From Planctomycetales bacterium (GTDB lineage: Bacteria; Planctomycetota; Phycisphaerae; SM23-33): 64,000 nucleotides of DNA. Location of the stretch: assembly GCA_030612725.1 (NCBI GenBank), contig JAUWNJ010000015.1:1-64000 (forward strand). The letters are read 5' to 3'. Under the pieces are notes generated by a model. It was not told where the DNA came from, made no database searches, and saw only the letters and a program-made list of their open reading frames with translations. Shown here piece by piece: positions 18,004 to 62,084 of the stretch. Every line of letters begins with the position of its first letter. Position 1 is the stretch's first letter. The position numbers and the translations under genes are program-made.

Positions 18004-18482
18004 AGCGATTTCAATGGCCATTACAACGCCTTCTCGACGTTACGATCCAGCGAGAACTGGCGGCAAGGGCGAAATTGTTCGCTCTTTCACGCAAGATCGC
18101 CGACGTCCACAGGAAAATTTTCTACCACCAGGCATCCCTGCGAATCGCATTGGCTGAACTGTCCAATAAAAACCTCGAAAAACGCCTCCCCGAACAACAG
18201 GTCTTTATGCAGTGTTCCGAAGCCGAGGAGGAAAGACTCGACAAATTGAGAGAAAACCTCCGTGTCCTGAAAAAAGAACGGGCCGAGAAAATCGACGTAT
18301 TCACCAAGACGAAATCCTCGCGTGAAACACTGGAACGATTGCGGGAAGAATCGCTTCAGCGACACGAGAGAGAAACGATTAAAGAACAGCAAAAACAACT
18401 GGATGAAAACGCCCAGACTGCATTCGCCCGCAAAATGATTTCACTTGCGGGTATGCAGCCCGGTATGAGGAGCGCGACATGA
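18000..18482 (+). CDS. fliJ: flagellar export chaperone/stalk protein FliJ
   Basis: 160 residues, ATGA overlap with fliI. It starts MKRFQWPLQRLLDVTIQRE, the typical FliJ opening. It is almost wholly coiled coil, with runs of Glu/Lys/Arg (ERLDKLRENLRVLKKERAEKIDVF...). FliJ is the central stalk of the FliI hexamer, similar to F1 gamma, and links it to FlhA. Position after fliI and size match the family. The sequence is weakly conserved, so the call leans partly on context. Confidence 0.88.
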   Translation: MKRFQWPLQRLLDVTIQRELAARAKLFALSRKIADVHRKIFYHQASLRIALAELSNKNLEKRLPEQQVFMQCSEAEEERLDKLRENLRVLKKERAEKIDVFTKTKSSRETLERLREESLQRHERETIKEQQKQLDENAQTAFARKMISLAGMQPGMRSAT

Positions 18483-38438: not shown

Positions 38439-38620
38439 AGGTAACGCCTTGGTAAGAAGTTCTCAAGGTAAGACATGCTATCGAATCGCCGGCGACAGTC
38501 AAATTTTATGTGTTACAAAAAATTGTTGCCGGAGGGTATTTTTTGCTGGTTTCAGGTGTGAGCGGAAAATAGATTACTCGTTGATTCGTGTCGCGTTCCT
38601 GTCAGAAGGAGTCTCTCAAG

Positions 38621-40717
38621 ATGAGCAAGAGAAAAAATAAGCCGACGGATCATCATGTTGTGCGGGCCGTCTGCGACGGCGTACCGCTTTACTCCTACGG
38701 CTACACCAACATCCTAGGCCAAAGCCCCGACCTGATTGACGATCCGCGGGTCCAGAAAGGTAATGATTCGCCGCTGCGGAAGATTCAACCCAAGAAAAGT
38801 TGGGAGATTCACAGCAATCGCCTGGGCGCGACTGCGCCTCGCATGCCACGGACGCCGGAAAACGATTACCGCCCGCTGGAGGCGATTCACCTGATCGACG
38901 GCGACGTGCAGACCTGCTGGAGCAGCGAGGGTCAGGCGCAGCCGGACGTCGAAGAAATCTGGATTCGCCTCGATCTGCCGGTCGAGCGAGACATTTCCGG
39001 GGTCGTACTGCGGAAGCGCCCGCCCGGACCGAAGCGAGGCATCGTCGGCAGCGTGTCGCTGGACGAAGGTTCCGTCGAGGTCGGCATGGGCGTACCGGCG
39101 GAACTGACTATCAAGGTCAGCCGAGACGGATGGCACTGGGAGACGGTCTTCGAAGGCCCCAGCGGCGACGCGCCCGACCGGCGGGAGTTGGAATTCACCT
39201 TCAACGCCCGCCCCGCAAAGCAGATATGGATCATAGGCCGGAACCTTCCCCGCGTGGAAAACTGGGGCTTCTCATTCTCCATAGCCGAGGTTGAAGTCCT
39301 GGACCCGCAAGGCGGAAACCTCGCCCTGGCAACGCGCGGCACCGGCATCACGGCCAACTCAACACGTCATACCCCCGGCGAGCCGCTCGTAGCCCACCAG
39401 TGGTACTGGCCGCTTCACTATGACCTGGGACTGAAGTGGGTCCGCGTAGGCTATCACGACGACACCATCAACTGGCACTGGGTAGAGAAGGAAAAGGGCA
39501 AACTGGTTCTGGACCCGGTAACCGACCAGGCGATAACCGACATGGTGGACCATGGTATTGACGTTGTCATGGCGTTGGACGGCGGTAATCGGCACTACAC
39601 GCACAAGGACCCTGCCCGAAAACTCCCGCAACTGTGGGAATGGTATTACGAAAACCCTTTGCCCCCGACCACGCCGGAGGCGCTGGAGGCATGGAAGCGA
39701 TACGTGCGATTCATGGCCGAGAAATTCTGCGACCGGGTGAAAGTCTTCGAGATATGGAACGAGTGGAATATCAACTTGTACTGGGGAGGTCTGGTTAACA
39801 TCGACCACTATATCGCGGTGGCCCGCGCGACGATTCCGATCCTCCGCGAGGTCTGCCCCAAGGCCAAGATCATGCTTGGCTCCGTCTCGCACTTAGGCTG
39901 GGAGGATTCCTGTTTCGGTATGGCGACCTGGAGCCAGGAAGAACTAGCCGCCAAGGCGACCAAAGAGCTGCTCCTTCAGGCTGTCCGGGCGTTGGCCGGT
40001 GACGTTGACCTGATCGGCTGGCACCCATTCTACCAGCACGATCCGGAACTTCCCGTCATCAAAAGTTACACCGCCGACGTGCGGGCATTCAAGGAGTTTT
40101 GCAGGGCAGAGGGTTTCGGTGGTGAGTTCATGGTTACGGAGTGGAGTTACGGCGCGCATTATCCGCCCACCACGGTTCCCACCTGGTGGGGCGACTTCGA
40201 GCCCAGCGAACTTCAGAAGGCAAAGTACATCGCCCAAGTTACCGTCAAGCACACAGCCCTTGGCATGGAGTCGTTCTTCTGCGAGACGTGGAACACCGCA
40301 TATCCGCTGGACCTGAGCCTGATGCGCCGCTCGTTCACCGCCGACCCCATCTGTCCGATCCAACCGCAGGCCGCTTATTACGTTACGCGGAACCTGGCGA
40401 CGGCGCTGGAGGATTTACAGCCCGCCGACGAGGTGAAATTCCATCTTGAAAAACCTTCGCCGGAGAACCTGGAGACCTTCGCAATGAAGCGCAAGGGCGA
40501 AACGGTGCTGGCGGTGTGGACCGCCGGGCGCGCCGGCGATTCGTGCGAAGGCAAACCCTGCGACGTCGTTGTGGATGGGACCTTCTCCAAGGCAGAGGGG
40601 TACGACCCGCTGAACGGCACGACCCACGCGCTGAAAATGAAAACCAAGTCCGGTCAAACGGTGCTGCCGGAAATCCTCGTCAAGGATTACCCAATCCTGC
40701 TGCGCCTGCGGGTTTAA
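38621..40717 (+). CDS. glycoside hydrolase, clan-A-like TIM barrel with N-terminal F5/8-type domain
   Basis: 698 residues from ATG at 38621 with AGGAG about 11 bases upstream. Residues about 80-228 look like a discoidin/F5-8-type carbohydrate-binding domain (AIHLIDGDVQTCWSS ... ENWGFSFSIAEVEVLD). Residues 250-610 form a beta/alpha barrel: VKVFEIWNEWN with acid/base candidate E381 preceded by Asn, and FMVTEWSYG with nucleophile candidate E507. This fits clan GH-A (GH39/GH5-like). No signal peptide is visible, so the enzyme may be cytoplasmic. Its end overlaps convergent mnmA by 38 bp. Substrate unknown. Confidence 0.75.
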   Translation: MSKRKNKPTDHHVVRAVCDGVPLYSYGYTNILGQSPDLIDDPRVQKGNDSPLRKIQPKKSWEIHSNRLGATAPRMPRTPENDYRPLEAIHLIDGDVQTCWSSEGQAQPDVEEIWIRLDLPVERDISGVVLRKRPPGPKRGIVGSVSLDEGSVEVGMGVPAELTIKVSRDGWHWETVFEGPSGDAPDRRELEFTFNARPAKQIWIIGRNLPRVENWGFSFSIAEVEVLDPQGGNLALATRGTGITANSTRHTPGEPLVAHQWYWPLHYDLGLKWVRVGYHDDTINWHWVEKEKGKLVLDPVTDQAITDMVDHGIDVVMALDGGNRHYTHKDPARKLPQLWEWYYENPLPPTTPEALEAWKRYVRFMAEKFCDRVKVFEIWNEWNINLYWGGLVNIDHYIAVARATIPILREVCPKAKIMLGSVSHLGWEDSCFGMATWSQEELAAKATKELLLQAVRALAGDVDLIGWHPFYQHDPELPVIKSYTADVRAFKEFCRAEGFGGEFMVTEWSYGAHYPPTTVPTWWGDFEPSELQKAKYIAQVTVKHTALGMESFFCETWNTAYPLDLSLMRRSFTADPICPIQPQAAYYVTRNLATALEDLQPADEVKFHLEKPSPENLETFAMKRKGETVLAVWTAGRAGDSCEGKPCDVVVDGTFSKAEGYDPLNGTTHALKMKTKSGQTVLPEILVKDYPILLRLRV

Positions 40718-41870
40718 AGGCCTGGATCCATCCGCCGCCGAGGAGTTTGTCGCCGTCATAAACCACGGCTGCCTGTCCGGGCGTGATGGCCATTATCGGT
40801 TCGGCAAACTCGACCTCGAATCGCCCCGACCCAGTGATGCGAACCCGTCCGGGGCAGCCGGCGTGGTTGTAACGAATCTGCACCGTCGCATCGAATTCAA
40901 TGGGTGGCACCTTCAACCGGAGCGGAGCGGAGGTTGTGGGTGCTGGATGGACAATACCATCGAACACCCACAAGCTCCGCTCCACTTCGTTCCGCTCCGC
41001 TTGAAGGTGCCACCCTTCATTTATATCAATGTGCCAGTTGGCTCCACAGGCTGATAGTTGCCGGGACATTACCTCGTCTTTCGGACCTATGGTAACGGTG
41101 GCTGTGGCTGGGTCGATTCGTGTAACGTACCTCGGCTCACCGGCAGCGACGCGAAGCCCGCGACGCTGGCCTATCGTAAAATTGGCTACGCCCTCGTGCC
41201 GGCCCAGGACGTTGCCGGATGAATCGACAATATCGCCGGGCTTCAGAGCGCCGCTCCGGCGGGCGCGGAGCAAATCCACGTAATCGCCCGAAACGAAGCA
41301 TATCTCCTGGCTGTCGGGTTTGTCGGCCACAGACAGTCCCAGTTCGGCGGCGATGCGACGAACCTCGGACTTATCGGGCAAATCGCCTATCGGAAGGAGG
41401 ATCCGCCCCAGATACTCGCGCGGAACCCCGAAAAGAGCGTAGGATTGGTCCTTCTCGGCTGCCCGACAGATAAGCCCGTCGGACATCCTGGCGTGATGAC
41501 CCGTAGCGATATAGCGAATGCCCATCGCGTCGGCCTGGGCAATCAGGCCGGCGAATTTGATGTGCGTATTGCAGCGGATGCAGGGGTTTGGCGTTCGCCC
41601 GCGAGAATACTCATCTACGAAATAGCCGATTATCCGTGCGAAATCCTTGCTGACATCAAGATTGATAAGTTCTATTCCGAGTCGGTCAGCCACTCGCTGC
41701 GCATCGACAGCACCTGCCTGCTTACCGTAGGCAGGCAGGTCGCCGCCGTGGCCACAAAGGAAGAACAGACCTGTAACGTCGTAGCCTGCCTGAAGCAGCA
41801 TACCGGCAGCGACGGCTGAATCGACGCCGCCGCTGATTCCGACGAGGACCGTTTTTTCGTTCTTTTTCAT
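40680..41870 (-). CDS. mnmA: tRNA-specific 2-thiouridylase MnmA with a 38-residue in-frame insertion
   Basis: 396 residues. PP-loop SGGVDS (13-18), nucleophile C97 (TPNPCIRC) and second cysteine C191 (SQEICFV) are all present. The enzyme makes s2U34 in tRNA for Lys, Glu and Gln. The C-terminal beta-barrel is interrupted at residues 286-323 by GWHLQAERNEVERSL..., encoded by a 114-bp palindrome (40902-41015). The flanks NWHIDINE and IEFDATVQIRYNHAG read as normal MnmA. The frame is kept, so the protein is probably functional. It is convergent with the glycoside hydrolase gene. Confidence 0.93.
   Translation of the reverse strand: MKKNEKTVLVGISGGVDSAVAAGMLLQAGYDVTGLFFLCGHGGDLPAYGKQAGAVDAQRVADRLGIELINLDVSKDFARIIGYFVDEYSRGRTPNPCIRCNTHIKFAGLIAQADAMGIRYIATGHHARMSDGLICRAAEKDQSYALFGVPREYLGRILLPIGDLPDKSEVRRIAAELGLSVADKPDSQEICFVSGDYVDLLRARRSGALKPGDIVDSSGNVLGRHEGVANFTIGQRRGLRVAAGEPRYVTRIDPATATVTIGPKDEVMSRQLSACGANWHIDINEGWHLQAERNEVERSLWVFDGIVHPAPTTSAPLRLKVPPIEFDATVQIRYNHAGCPGRVRITGSGRFEVEFAEPIMAITPGQAAVVYDGDKLLGGGWIQAFKPAGAAGLGNP
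40902..41015. repeat. 114-bp palindromic element inserted in frame inside mnmA
   Basis: Perfect 15-bp ends GGGTGGCACCTTCAA (40902-40916) and complement (41001-41015); an inner 9-bp stem TTGTGGGTG (40934-40942) with CACCCACAA (40965-40973); GGAGCGGAGCGGAG-type repeats between. Its length is 38 codons. The flanking bases on the coding strand are TGAA on both sides, a possible 4-bp target duplication. It is comparable in concept to Rickettsia palindromic elements. Confidence 0.85.
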
Positions 41871-58342: not shown

Positions 58343-59290
58343 TTATGCCTTTTTCCTCGCCAAAACATAGGCCGTTATGGTCTTAAAATCATCGTCGGTA
58401 AAGTGGGCGAACCGGGTGGCGAGGCTATTCCGGGTAATTCCCGACACATCGTCGGCATTGAGTTCGCTGACGATATCAAAGCCGGTTTTCTCAATCAGTT
58501 CGCGGTGGGTCGAGTAAGGTTCCCTGTTTATCAGCCAAGGCCGATTTCCTTTGATGAGTTTCCATGTCAGGAGCGAGTAGGCCCAGTGTCCGTTCCAATG
58601 TTTAGACAGACCATGGGAGGACAAGTCGATCTGATGGCTCATAAACCCGCCGCCCTTGAGCCAACGATACAATGCCTCATAAGTGCCGCCCAGGTCCTCG
58701 ACGTGCTCCAGCACTGCCTGGGAAAATATCATATCGACGGATTCGGACTTTATCACGCTACTGTCGTTCCACGGTGCAAAATAGCGGATTTTGACGGTGC
58801 TTTCGTCTGCATTATCGGGATTGATAATCGCATTGCGAATTTCCTGAATCCGCGACGGGACCAGTGTTTCGGCGAGACGTTCGTCGGTGAGTATCTCGTG
58901 CGGAAATCGGCACGAAGTTAATTGCGGCGTGATTTCGGGAAATTCATCCCGCCCTGGGATTGGCCGACGTTCACTGAACAGAGAAACCAACTCCTCGAAG
59001 ATATTCAAATTGGCCTGCGTATTGGCGTACTCGACGACATCGAGTGCGTAGTATTTTCGCGCGCCCGTCAGCAGCGCCGCCAGACCCGTTCCGATAGAAT
59101 CGCCCGGACCAAGTTCAGCCACGACCTTGGGGTAAGTATCAAGACCGGCCTGGTGAATCATCACCAGATGCCGAAGCCAGACGGAATAGCAATATCGGGC
59201 AGAATCCGTCCCGCCGGTCCTCCGGCAGGTGAACCTGCCCATACCGGGAAGATAGGTTGCGATACCTTTGATTATGTGTTTGATGCCCAT
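58343..59290 (-). CDS. class I SAM-dependent methyltransferase
   Basis: 315 residues. SAM-binding motif I is VAELGPGDSIGTGLAALL (about 56-73), the acidic motif II lies in YYALDVVEYAN, and a Methyltransf_11-like segment is SVDMIFSQAVLEHVEDLGGTYEALYRWLKGGGFMSHQIDLSSHG. The C-terminal part resembles sugar or cell-surface glycan methyltransferases, but acceptor evidence is lacking. The start ATG lies just upstream of a hairpin region. Confidence 0.82.
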   Translation of the reverse strand: MGIKHIIKGIATYLPGMGRFTCRRTGGTDSARYCYSVWLRHLVMIHQAGLDTYPKVVAELGPGDSIGTGLAALLTGARKYYALDVVEYANTQANLNIFEELVSLFSERRPIPGRDEFPEITPQLTSCRFPHEILTDERLAETLVPSRIQEIRNAIINPDNADESTVKIRYFAPWNDSSVIKSESVDMIFSQAVLEHVEDLGGTYEALYRWLKGGGFMSHQIDLSSHGLSKHWNGHWAYSLLTWKLIKGNRPWLINREPYSTHRELIEKTGFDIVSELNADDVSGITRNSLATRFAHFTDDDFKTITAYVLARKKA

Positions 59291-59325
59291 GTGTTATCGA
59301 TCCGTCATGGATAAGTCGCGGCGGG

Positions 59326-59398
59326 TGCCGTGGCCGCTGCGTTTGCGGCCACGTGGAGATGCAAGCACAGTCGTGGTCGTAAACACCGCGACCACGGC
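59326..59398. repeat. two inverted copies of a GTGCCGTGG-type hairpin
   Basis: The first hairpin is CGTGGCCGC (59329-59337) with GCGGCCACG (59345-59353). The second is CGTGGTCG (59372-59379) with CGACCACG near 59388-59395. The complement of the second reads GTGCCGTGGTCGCGGTGTTT, close to 59326-59345, so the two are the same word facing each other. A third copy is at 61545-61569. Confidence 0.65.
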
Positions 59399-59404
59399 AC
59401 CCGA

Positions 59405-59548
59405 TTACGCATCCGTCAGACGTTCTATTATCTCCGCAAAATCGGGATGTCCCCGTATCAAATCCTCCCGCCGGGCCGGTTGATAGTCATCGAAATCGAA
59501 TGCCGGCGCTATGGTGGTTCCCATCATCGCGAAACTTCCGCCGGCGTT
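59405..59548 (-). pseudogene. 3'-end remnant of a cupin gene (duplicate of 61578-61720)
   Basis: Read on the minus strand it gives NAGGSFAMMGTTIAPAFDFDDYQPARR... and ends with TAA at 59407-59405, matching the last 48 residues of the intact cupin. Bases 59381-59482 equal 61554-61655 without change (102 bp), while 59483-59548 match at roughly three quarters. The upstream two thirds of the gene are missing. The start of the remnant overlaps the end of the secreted-protein gene in another frame and supplies its stop. Confidence 0.85.
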
Positions 59549-61503: not shown

Positions 61504-61544
61504 TTCTGCTCCTTGTGTTTGCAAACATCCCATCGACGTGTAAA

Positions 61545-61569
61545 CGTGGTCGCAAACACCGCGACCACG
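61545..61569. repeat. hairpin after the cupin gene
   Basis: CGTGGTCGC (61545-61553) and GCGACCACG (61561-61569) form a perfect 9-bp stem with a 7-nt loop. The hairpin lies in the downstream part of a block (61554-61655) that is repeated without change at 59381-59482. It follows the cupin stop by 8 bp (minus strand) and may serve as terminator. Confidence 0.65.
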
Positions 61570-61577
61570 GCACCCGA

Positions 61578-62084
61578 TTACGCATCCGTCAGACGTTCTA
61601 TTATCTCCGCAAAATCGGGATGTCCCCGTATCAAATCCTCCCGCCGGGCCGGTTGGTAGTCCTCGAAGTCGAAGGCAGGGGCGACGGTGGTTCCCATCAG
61701 TGCGAAACGCCCCCCGGCGTTCAGGTGCATACCCTGCCAGACGCCCTGCGGAACGACGCATTGGAGGCAATGGCCTGCTTCGATGTCCTGACCCAGGATT
61801 ATCGTCTCGCCACGCCCGTCGGGATGCAGATGGAGCATCGTTACCGGATCGCCCAGGTAGAAATGAAAAATCTCGTCGCTGACCAGCCGATGAATGGCCG
61901 AAAAAGTCTCCGGCGTCAGGAGATAGTAAATGGCAGTGGCGATGTGCTTGTCGGATGAATATCGCTCCGGCAGCGCGACGGCGGGGATTGTTCCGTCGCT
62001 GCTGCGGTAGGTTTCCCTAGAAAACCCACCTTCGCCCGGCAGCGGCTCCAAGCCAAGATGTTCAATGATTTCCCTTGCGTTCAT
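61578..62084 (-). CDS. cupin-fold protein (DUF985/cupin_5)
   Basis: 168 residues. EGGFSRETYRSS, TAIYYLLTPETFSAIHRLVSDEIFHFYLGDPVTMLHLHPDGRGE, LGQDIEAGHCLQCVVPQGVWQG and MGTTVAPAFDFEDYQPARREDLIRGHPDFAEIIERL are typical of the family (YML079w-like). It may bind a small ligand or metal; function unproven. Its 3' end is duplicated downstream at 59405-59548. Its start overlaps the end of the preceding hydrolase gene by 23 nt. Confidence 0.92.
   Translation of the reverse strand: MNAREIIEHLGLEPLPGEGGFSRETYRSSDGTIPAVALPERYSSDKHIATAIYYLLTPETFSAIHRLVSDEIFHFYLGDPVTMLHLHPDGRGETIILGQDIEAGHCLQCVVPQGVWQGMHLNAGGRFALMGTTVAPAFDFEDYQPARREDLIRGHPDFAEIIERLTDA

Follow-up and report, generated by a model that had tools for sequence, protein, structure and literature searches.

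Inverted pairs of REP sequences (REPINs) that form hairpins and carry a GTRG-type tetranucleotide tag have been described together with their transposases, the RAYTs, whose genes are flanked by the same REPs. In these REPIN/RAYT (TnpA-REP) systems (Bertels and Rainey 2011, PMC3116915; PMC8266576), several classes are found per genome and no target duplication is seen. GTGG is an accepted form of the tag (PMC6006769, PMC3733652). The tag guides the cut made by the RAYT, and a tag changed to GTGG results in cutting at CC (PMC8266576). REPs can also reside in genes: in Opitutus terrae, Thauera and others, intragenic GTAG/GTGG REPs form dimers lying in frame inside ORFs (Di Nocera 2013, PMC3733652). 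A different type of coding palindrome is the Rickettsia palindromic element (RPE), which, in the account given by a later paper, lengthens unrelated proteins in frame by some tens of residues (Ogata 2000, 2002, cited in PMC10969869).

The window analyzed here is a 64,000-nucleotide stretch of a Planctomycetales bacterium (assembly GCA_030612725.1, contig JAUWNJ010000015.1), in which the tRNA-modification gene mnmA carries a palindromic insert. This insert is a REPIN, a pair of REP hairpins in inverted orientation, rather than an element of the Rickettsia type lacking a known mover. It shares with the REPIN/RAYT systems the hairpin-forming inverted REPs, the type of tag, a RAYT gene with the same REPs on either side, several classes per genome and the lack of target duplication, but its REPs are longer (about 42-51 nt), form an asymmetric long/short pair and bear a GTGG tag; moreover, no RAYT was found in the assembly of the host genome, and residence in frame in conserved genes is repeated. 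With GTAG-20 of Opitutus terrae (PMC3733652) it has in common both the GTGG tag and a host in the PVC superphylum. The Opitutus and Thauera sequences differ from those described here, although they were not compared letter by letter, and our comparison of species adds unoccupied and occupied alleles as well as an apparent replacement of one class by another at the same base. RPEs, for their part, differ in phylum and anatomy, and the present element has a transposase that can be named.

Neither REPINs and RAYTs nor REPs lying in frame inside genes are new (PMC3116915, PMC3733652). An earlier note on this DNA had held that an example in a conserved tRNA-modifying enzyme of a planctomycete-like genome would be new; as a kind, an element of this sort in a gene is not, since in-frame intragenic REPs had been reported in other phyla (PMC3733652). 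Relative to the open-access literature, the novelty lies in the family and the genus that hosts it, in copies of both classes that flank a RAYT, and in a comparison of alleles that are unoccupied or hold class A or class B, the fresh part of the finding being the apparent class turnover in place.

A tagged palindrome in frame within mnmA

The ORF at 40680-41870 (minus strand) encodes tRNA 2-thiouridine(34) synthase, 396 aa long with a 38-residue insert included. Its product scores 339.7 bits against NCBIfam NF001138 (cut-off 284) and contains Pfam domains PF03054, PF20259 and PF20258; both the family score and the domain order are those of MnmA, the identity that the earlier note had read from the letters alone. 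At its 3' end the gene overlaps a convergent neighboring ORF (38588-40717, plus strand) by 38 bp, at 40680-40717.

The insert is a class A REPIN of 114 bp at 40902-41015 (minus strand), which keeps the reading frame and adds residues 286-323 of MnmA (GWHLQAERNEVERSLWVFDGIVHPAPTTSAPLRLKVPP). Alignments with solved MnmA structures and with PF20258 place it just before the strand matching E. coli CTVKTRYRQ, in a length-variable loop of the C-terminal beta-barrel; PF20258 itself aligns from its position 20 only, downstream of the insert. MnmA-like matches were obtained in 56 of the 60 relatives searched. Outside the genus, strand ANWH leads through a short loop into strand VQIRYNH and the 38 residues are absent; among the 56 relatives, inserts at this site are restricted to genomes of the same genus. 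The expectation that relatives lack residues 286-323 thus holds beyond the genus; within it, an insert of class A is present in two species and one of class B in a third. We refer below to the genome of the window as G000 and to its same-genus sister genomes as G001, G002 and G003. Between G000 and G003, dN/dS outside the insert is about 0.19, indicating purifying selection; the gene is therefore not decaying.

The element is a near-palindrome whose terminal inverted repeats (GGGTGGCACCTTCAA/TTGAAGGTGCCACCC) are perfect over 15 bp and whose inner stem (TTGTGGGTG/CACCCACAA) measures 9 bp; these two features and its length of 38 codons are as first noticed. Its predicted folding energy is -52.8 kcal/mol, against -18.3 +/- 2.9 kcal/mol for shuffled sequences (z = -11.7). 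Three parts can be distinguished. A short REP (40902-40943, plus strand) consists of the GTGG tag and a hairpin CACC(TT)CAACC...GGTTG(TG)GGTG, supported by the fold and by compensated stem changes across copies. A long REP (40965-41015, minus strand), with stem CAAGC...GCTTG, forms the 5' end of the element on the coding strand. The spacer between them (40944-40964, unstranded) holds all 7 differences from the mnmA copy of G003.

We catalogued 72 copies over the four genomes of the genus, 42 of class A and 30 of class B, the latter with ends GGGTGGCACGGTCAA. A class A half reads GTGG, then CACC-TT-CAAGC...GCTTG-TG-GGTG; a class B half also has the GTGG tag, followed by CACGG-T-CAAGC...GCTTG-G-CCGTG. 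Outer and inner arms co-vary between classes (GCACC/GGTGC versus CACGG/CCGTG), and inner arms are compensated among copies (CAAGC/GCTTG, CAACC/GGTTG, CAAGT/ACTTG, CAATC/GATTG). By a strict rule, 115 of the 144 halves pair perfectly with themselves. The two halves of class A are usually unlike, positions 16-17 being GC in one and CC in the other, so that they do not pair with each other there, yet each still pairs with itself. As halves pair with themselves and stems are compensated, the conserved unit is the tagged hairpin, that is a REP, and the element as a whole is a REPIN.

Dispersal, target sites and linked transposases

In the 3.16-Mb genome G000, GGGTGGCACCTTCAA with at most one mismatch occurs at 38 ends, against 0 for a reversed-pattern control; most matches form inverted pairs 104-147 bp long. 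About 20 dispersed class A copies result, mostly extragenic. The earlier note had described a palindromic element in frame within mnmA and had counted on further copies in the genome; both such copies and other genes carrying it in frame were indeed found. The modal length of class A is 114 bp (19 copies), both classes are present in all four genomes, and about 14 of the 72 catalogued copies lie inside supported genes. Outside the genus, single ends were detected in only 3 of 56 relatives, and a scan of the named genome collection returned full elements in three Planctomycetales MAGs only (CSMAG_1454, CSMAG_432 and CSMAG_3057).

The further genomic copies refute the view that the insert is a loop conserved for its function in the MnmA of this genus and encoded by DNA that is palindromic by chance. 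Such a loop would agree with an insert that is in frame in three species and nearly unchanged between G000 and G003 (7 differences, with a dS of 0.07 in the insert versus 0.83 outside), but copies of this DNA are scattered through the genome, most of them outside genes, G002 carries a different, class B peptide at the site, and orthologous intergenic REPINs are conserved to a similar degree; we give this view almost no credence. Since intergenic orthologs are equally conserved, we also dropped the near-identity of the G000 and G003 inserts as proof of recent independent insertion.

Several loci display additional repeats. About 20 bp beyond one of their ends, the class A copies at L013, L018, L027, L031, L034, L036 and L037 are accompanied by an additional repeat (GGCGGGTGGCCGGGGCAA or a close variant), and at L036 one class A REP is nested within another palindrome. 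A third REP class (GGGTGCCGTGGTCGCGGTGTTTGCGACCACG) occurs in the window at 59322-59403 and 61544-61576, beside a 177-bp duplication of 92% identity (59372-59548 and 61545-61721); its REPs match those flanking a 44%-identical RAYT in G001 (L152).

Target-site duplication was rejected. Over the 72 copies, direct repeats of 1, 2, 3 and 4 bp in the flanks numbered 12, 4, 1 and 0, with 8.7, 5.6, 2.4 and 0.1 expected, hence no excess; the TGAA duplication suggested for mnmA does not abut the element on its right side and is missing from G003. Both ends show instead a flank preference of RNY type, with a purine at -3 in 125 of 144 cases and a pyrimidine at -1 in 122 of 144. In several pairs of element-free and occupied orthologs the flanks differ beyond the element itself, so that some events were not clean insertions.

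A likely mover is visible next to the element in sister species. In G003, class A ends enclose a complete 191-aa REP-associated tyrosine transposase (C39:5842-6568; 101.1 bits for NCBIfam NF047646, cut-off 80; Pfam Y1_Tnp). In G002, class B REPs lie on both sides of a RAYT (contig C232) that is 63% identical to the class A-flanked one. No close homolog of either, RAYT-A or RAYT-B, was found in the G000 assembly, where the best match has 29% identity, so the mover is seen in sister species only; the RAYT of G000 may have been lost or may fall within an assembly gap. G000 has six Y1_Tnp genes and one weak RAYT match, and the six that were checked have no flanking class A or B ends. One locus, L041 (G000:C32:21535-21819 and flanks), encodes a Y1 transposase fused to a LexA-like N-terminal DNA-binding domain in a single 237-aa ORF (66 bits for the IS200 model, 62.5 bits for the LexA model).

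These observations bear on two other origins. Inverted ends and a short non-coding body would suit a classical MITE of a DDE insertion sequence, a cut-and-paste element with long terminal inverted repeats that duplicates its target. Duplications are absent in 72 copies, however, the full-length copies carry Y1 HUH transposases and not DDE enzymes, and the two halves are unlike in their inner stems, each pairing with itself; a DDE-type MITE is refuted and its probability is negligible. An RPE, moved by an unknown agent and selected for insertion into proteins, resembles our element in being a palindrome of about 100-150 bp found in frame in unrelated genes (PMC10969869). The comparison with Rickettsia drawn in the earlier note was apt as regards in-frame presence in genes; it does not extend to the nature of the element, whose copies are mostly extragenic, whose ends flank a RAYT gene and whose conserved unit is the tagged REP hairpin, and we consider an RPE very improbable. 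An inverted REP pair, tagged hairpins, a RAYT flanked by the same ends in a closely related genome and a mainly extragenic, dispersed distribution together identify a REPIN.

Occupied and unoccupied sites, and a possible exchange of class

In-frame copies with domain or ortholog support were found in at least 8 genes of the genus. Besides mnmA (class A in G000 and G003, class B in G002), they reside in an O-antigen ligase/TPR protein (class A in G003, and in G002 at an offset of about 21 bp; near residue 209, class B in G000 and also class A in G002, where a contig end cuts the copy). The others are an FtsX permease (class A in G002; three genomes without the element), a small membrane protein (class A in G000, class B in G002, none in G001), comEC (class B in G001 and G002, none in G000 or G003), a methyltransferase (class A in G003), a DUF3604 protein (class B in G000) and a histidine kinase, in its ATPase domain (class B in G002). 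The unoccupied G000 ortholog of the methyltransferase gene lies in the window itself, at 58343-59290 on the minus strand (alignment with L083; Pfam Methyltransf_11). Element length is a multiple of three in 9 of 14 intragenic copies versus 19 of 58 others (p = 0.04), and leaves a remainder of two in none of the 14 supported intragenic copies versus 20 of 58 others (p = 0.008), orthologous copies not being independent in either comparison; the excess of multiples of three within genes is suggestive only.

Occupied sites can differ in class between species. At the mnmA site, the sequence A/A/B in three species has the same base at both boundaries for class A and class B. The O-antigen ligase copies near residue 209 (B in G000, A in G002) share the same base on the single readable side, and the right flanks of the small membrane protein copies are identical. 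An intergenic site, L230 (G002:C232, about 18288-18455), has a longer A/B hybrid where the ortholog is of class A in G000 and G003. In all, the class changes at 4 of the 6 orthologous sites compared between G000 and G002. In the composite REPIN at L230, one end is of class B and the other of class A, with a duplicated class A REP between them.

We prefer exchange in place as an explanation: unless such a site is a strong target, it would be odd for separate insertions to have hit an identical base. Resident REPINs in conserved genes would then be exchanged for the other class in place, base-exact and in frame, through RAYT-driven or REP-REP recombination, a proposal that we make tentatively and rate at slightly under an even chance.

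Conclusions

Taken as a whole, the element is very probably a non-autonomous REPIN that a RAYT once moved and that, within genes, has been kept at tolerant in-frame sites where its class may be switched. The putative mover is a single-strand transposase of the Y1 HUH type; in a sister species, its gene lies between copies of these REPs. By analogy with RAYT and IS200/IS605 biochemistry, it would recognize the tagged hairpin on single-stranded DNA, cut beside it and join the element into a new place without target-site duplication. Most copies would land between genes; an intragenic copy would survive only if the reading frame is preserved overall and the insertion falls in a loop or linker that tolerates it. 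The element averages three stop-free frames, and its common length of 114 bp amounts to 38 codons. In mnmA, the copy would lengthen a loop of the C-terminal beta-barrel while the gene remains under purifying selection. A resident copy would be long-lived and may switch from class A to B or back, probably through recombination between REPs or through a new insertion into the element already present.

Ever since the Rickettsia elements, how selfish palindromes enter working proteins has been a standing question. In the present case the copies flanking its own gene identify the likely mover, and for a given gene the sister genomes supply alleles without the element, with class A and with class B. 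The host protein, moreover, is a conserved enzyme for which an assay exists. Together, these make it possible to test directly how coding REPINs are tolerated, where they come from and whether they are exchanged in place. If exchange in place is true, loops such as that of MnmA would be long-lived docking sites, at which the peptide is swapped between species.
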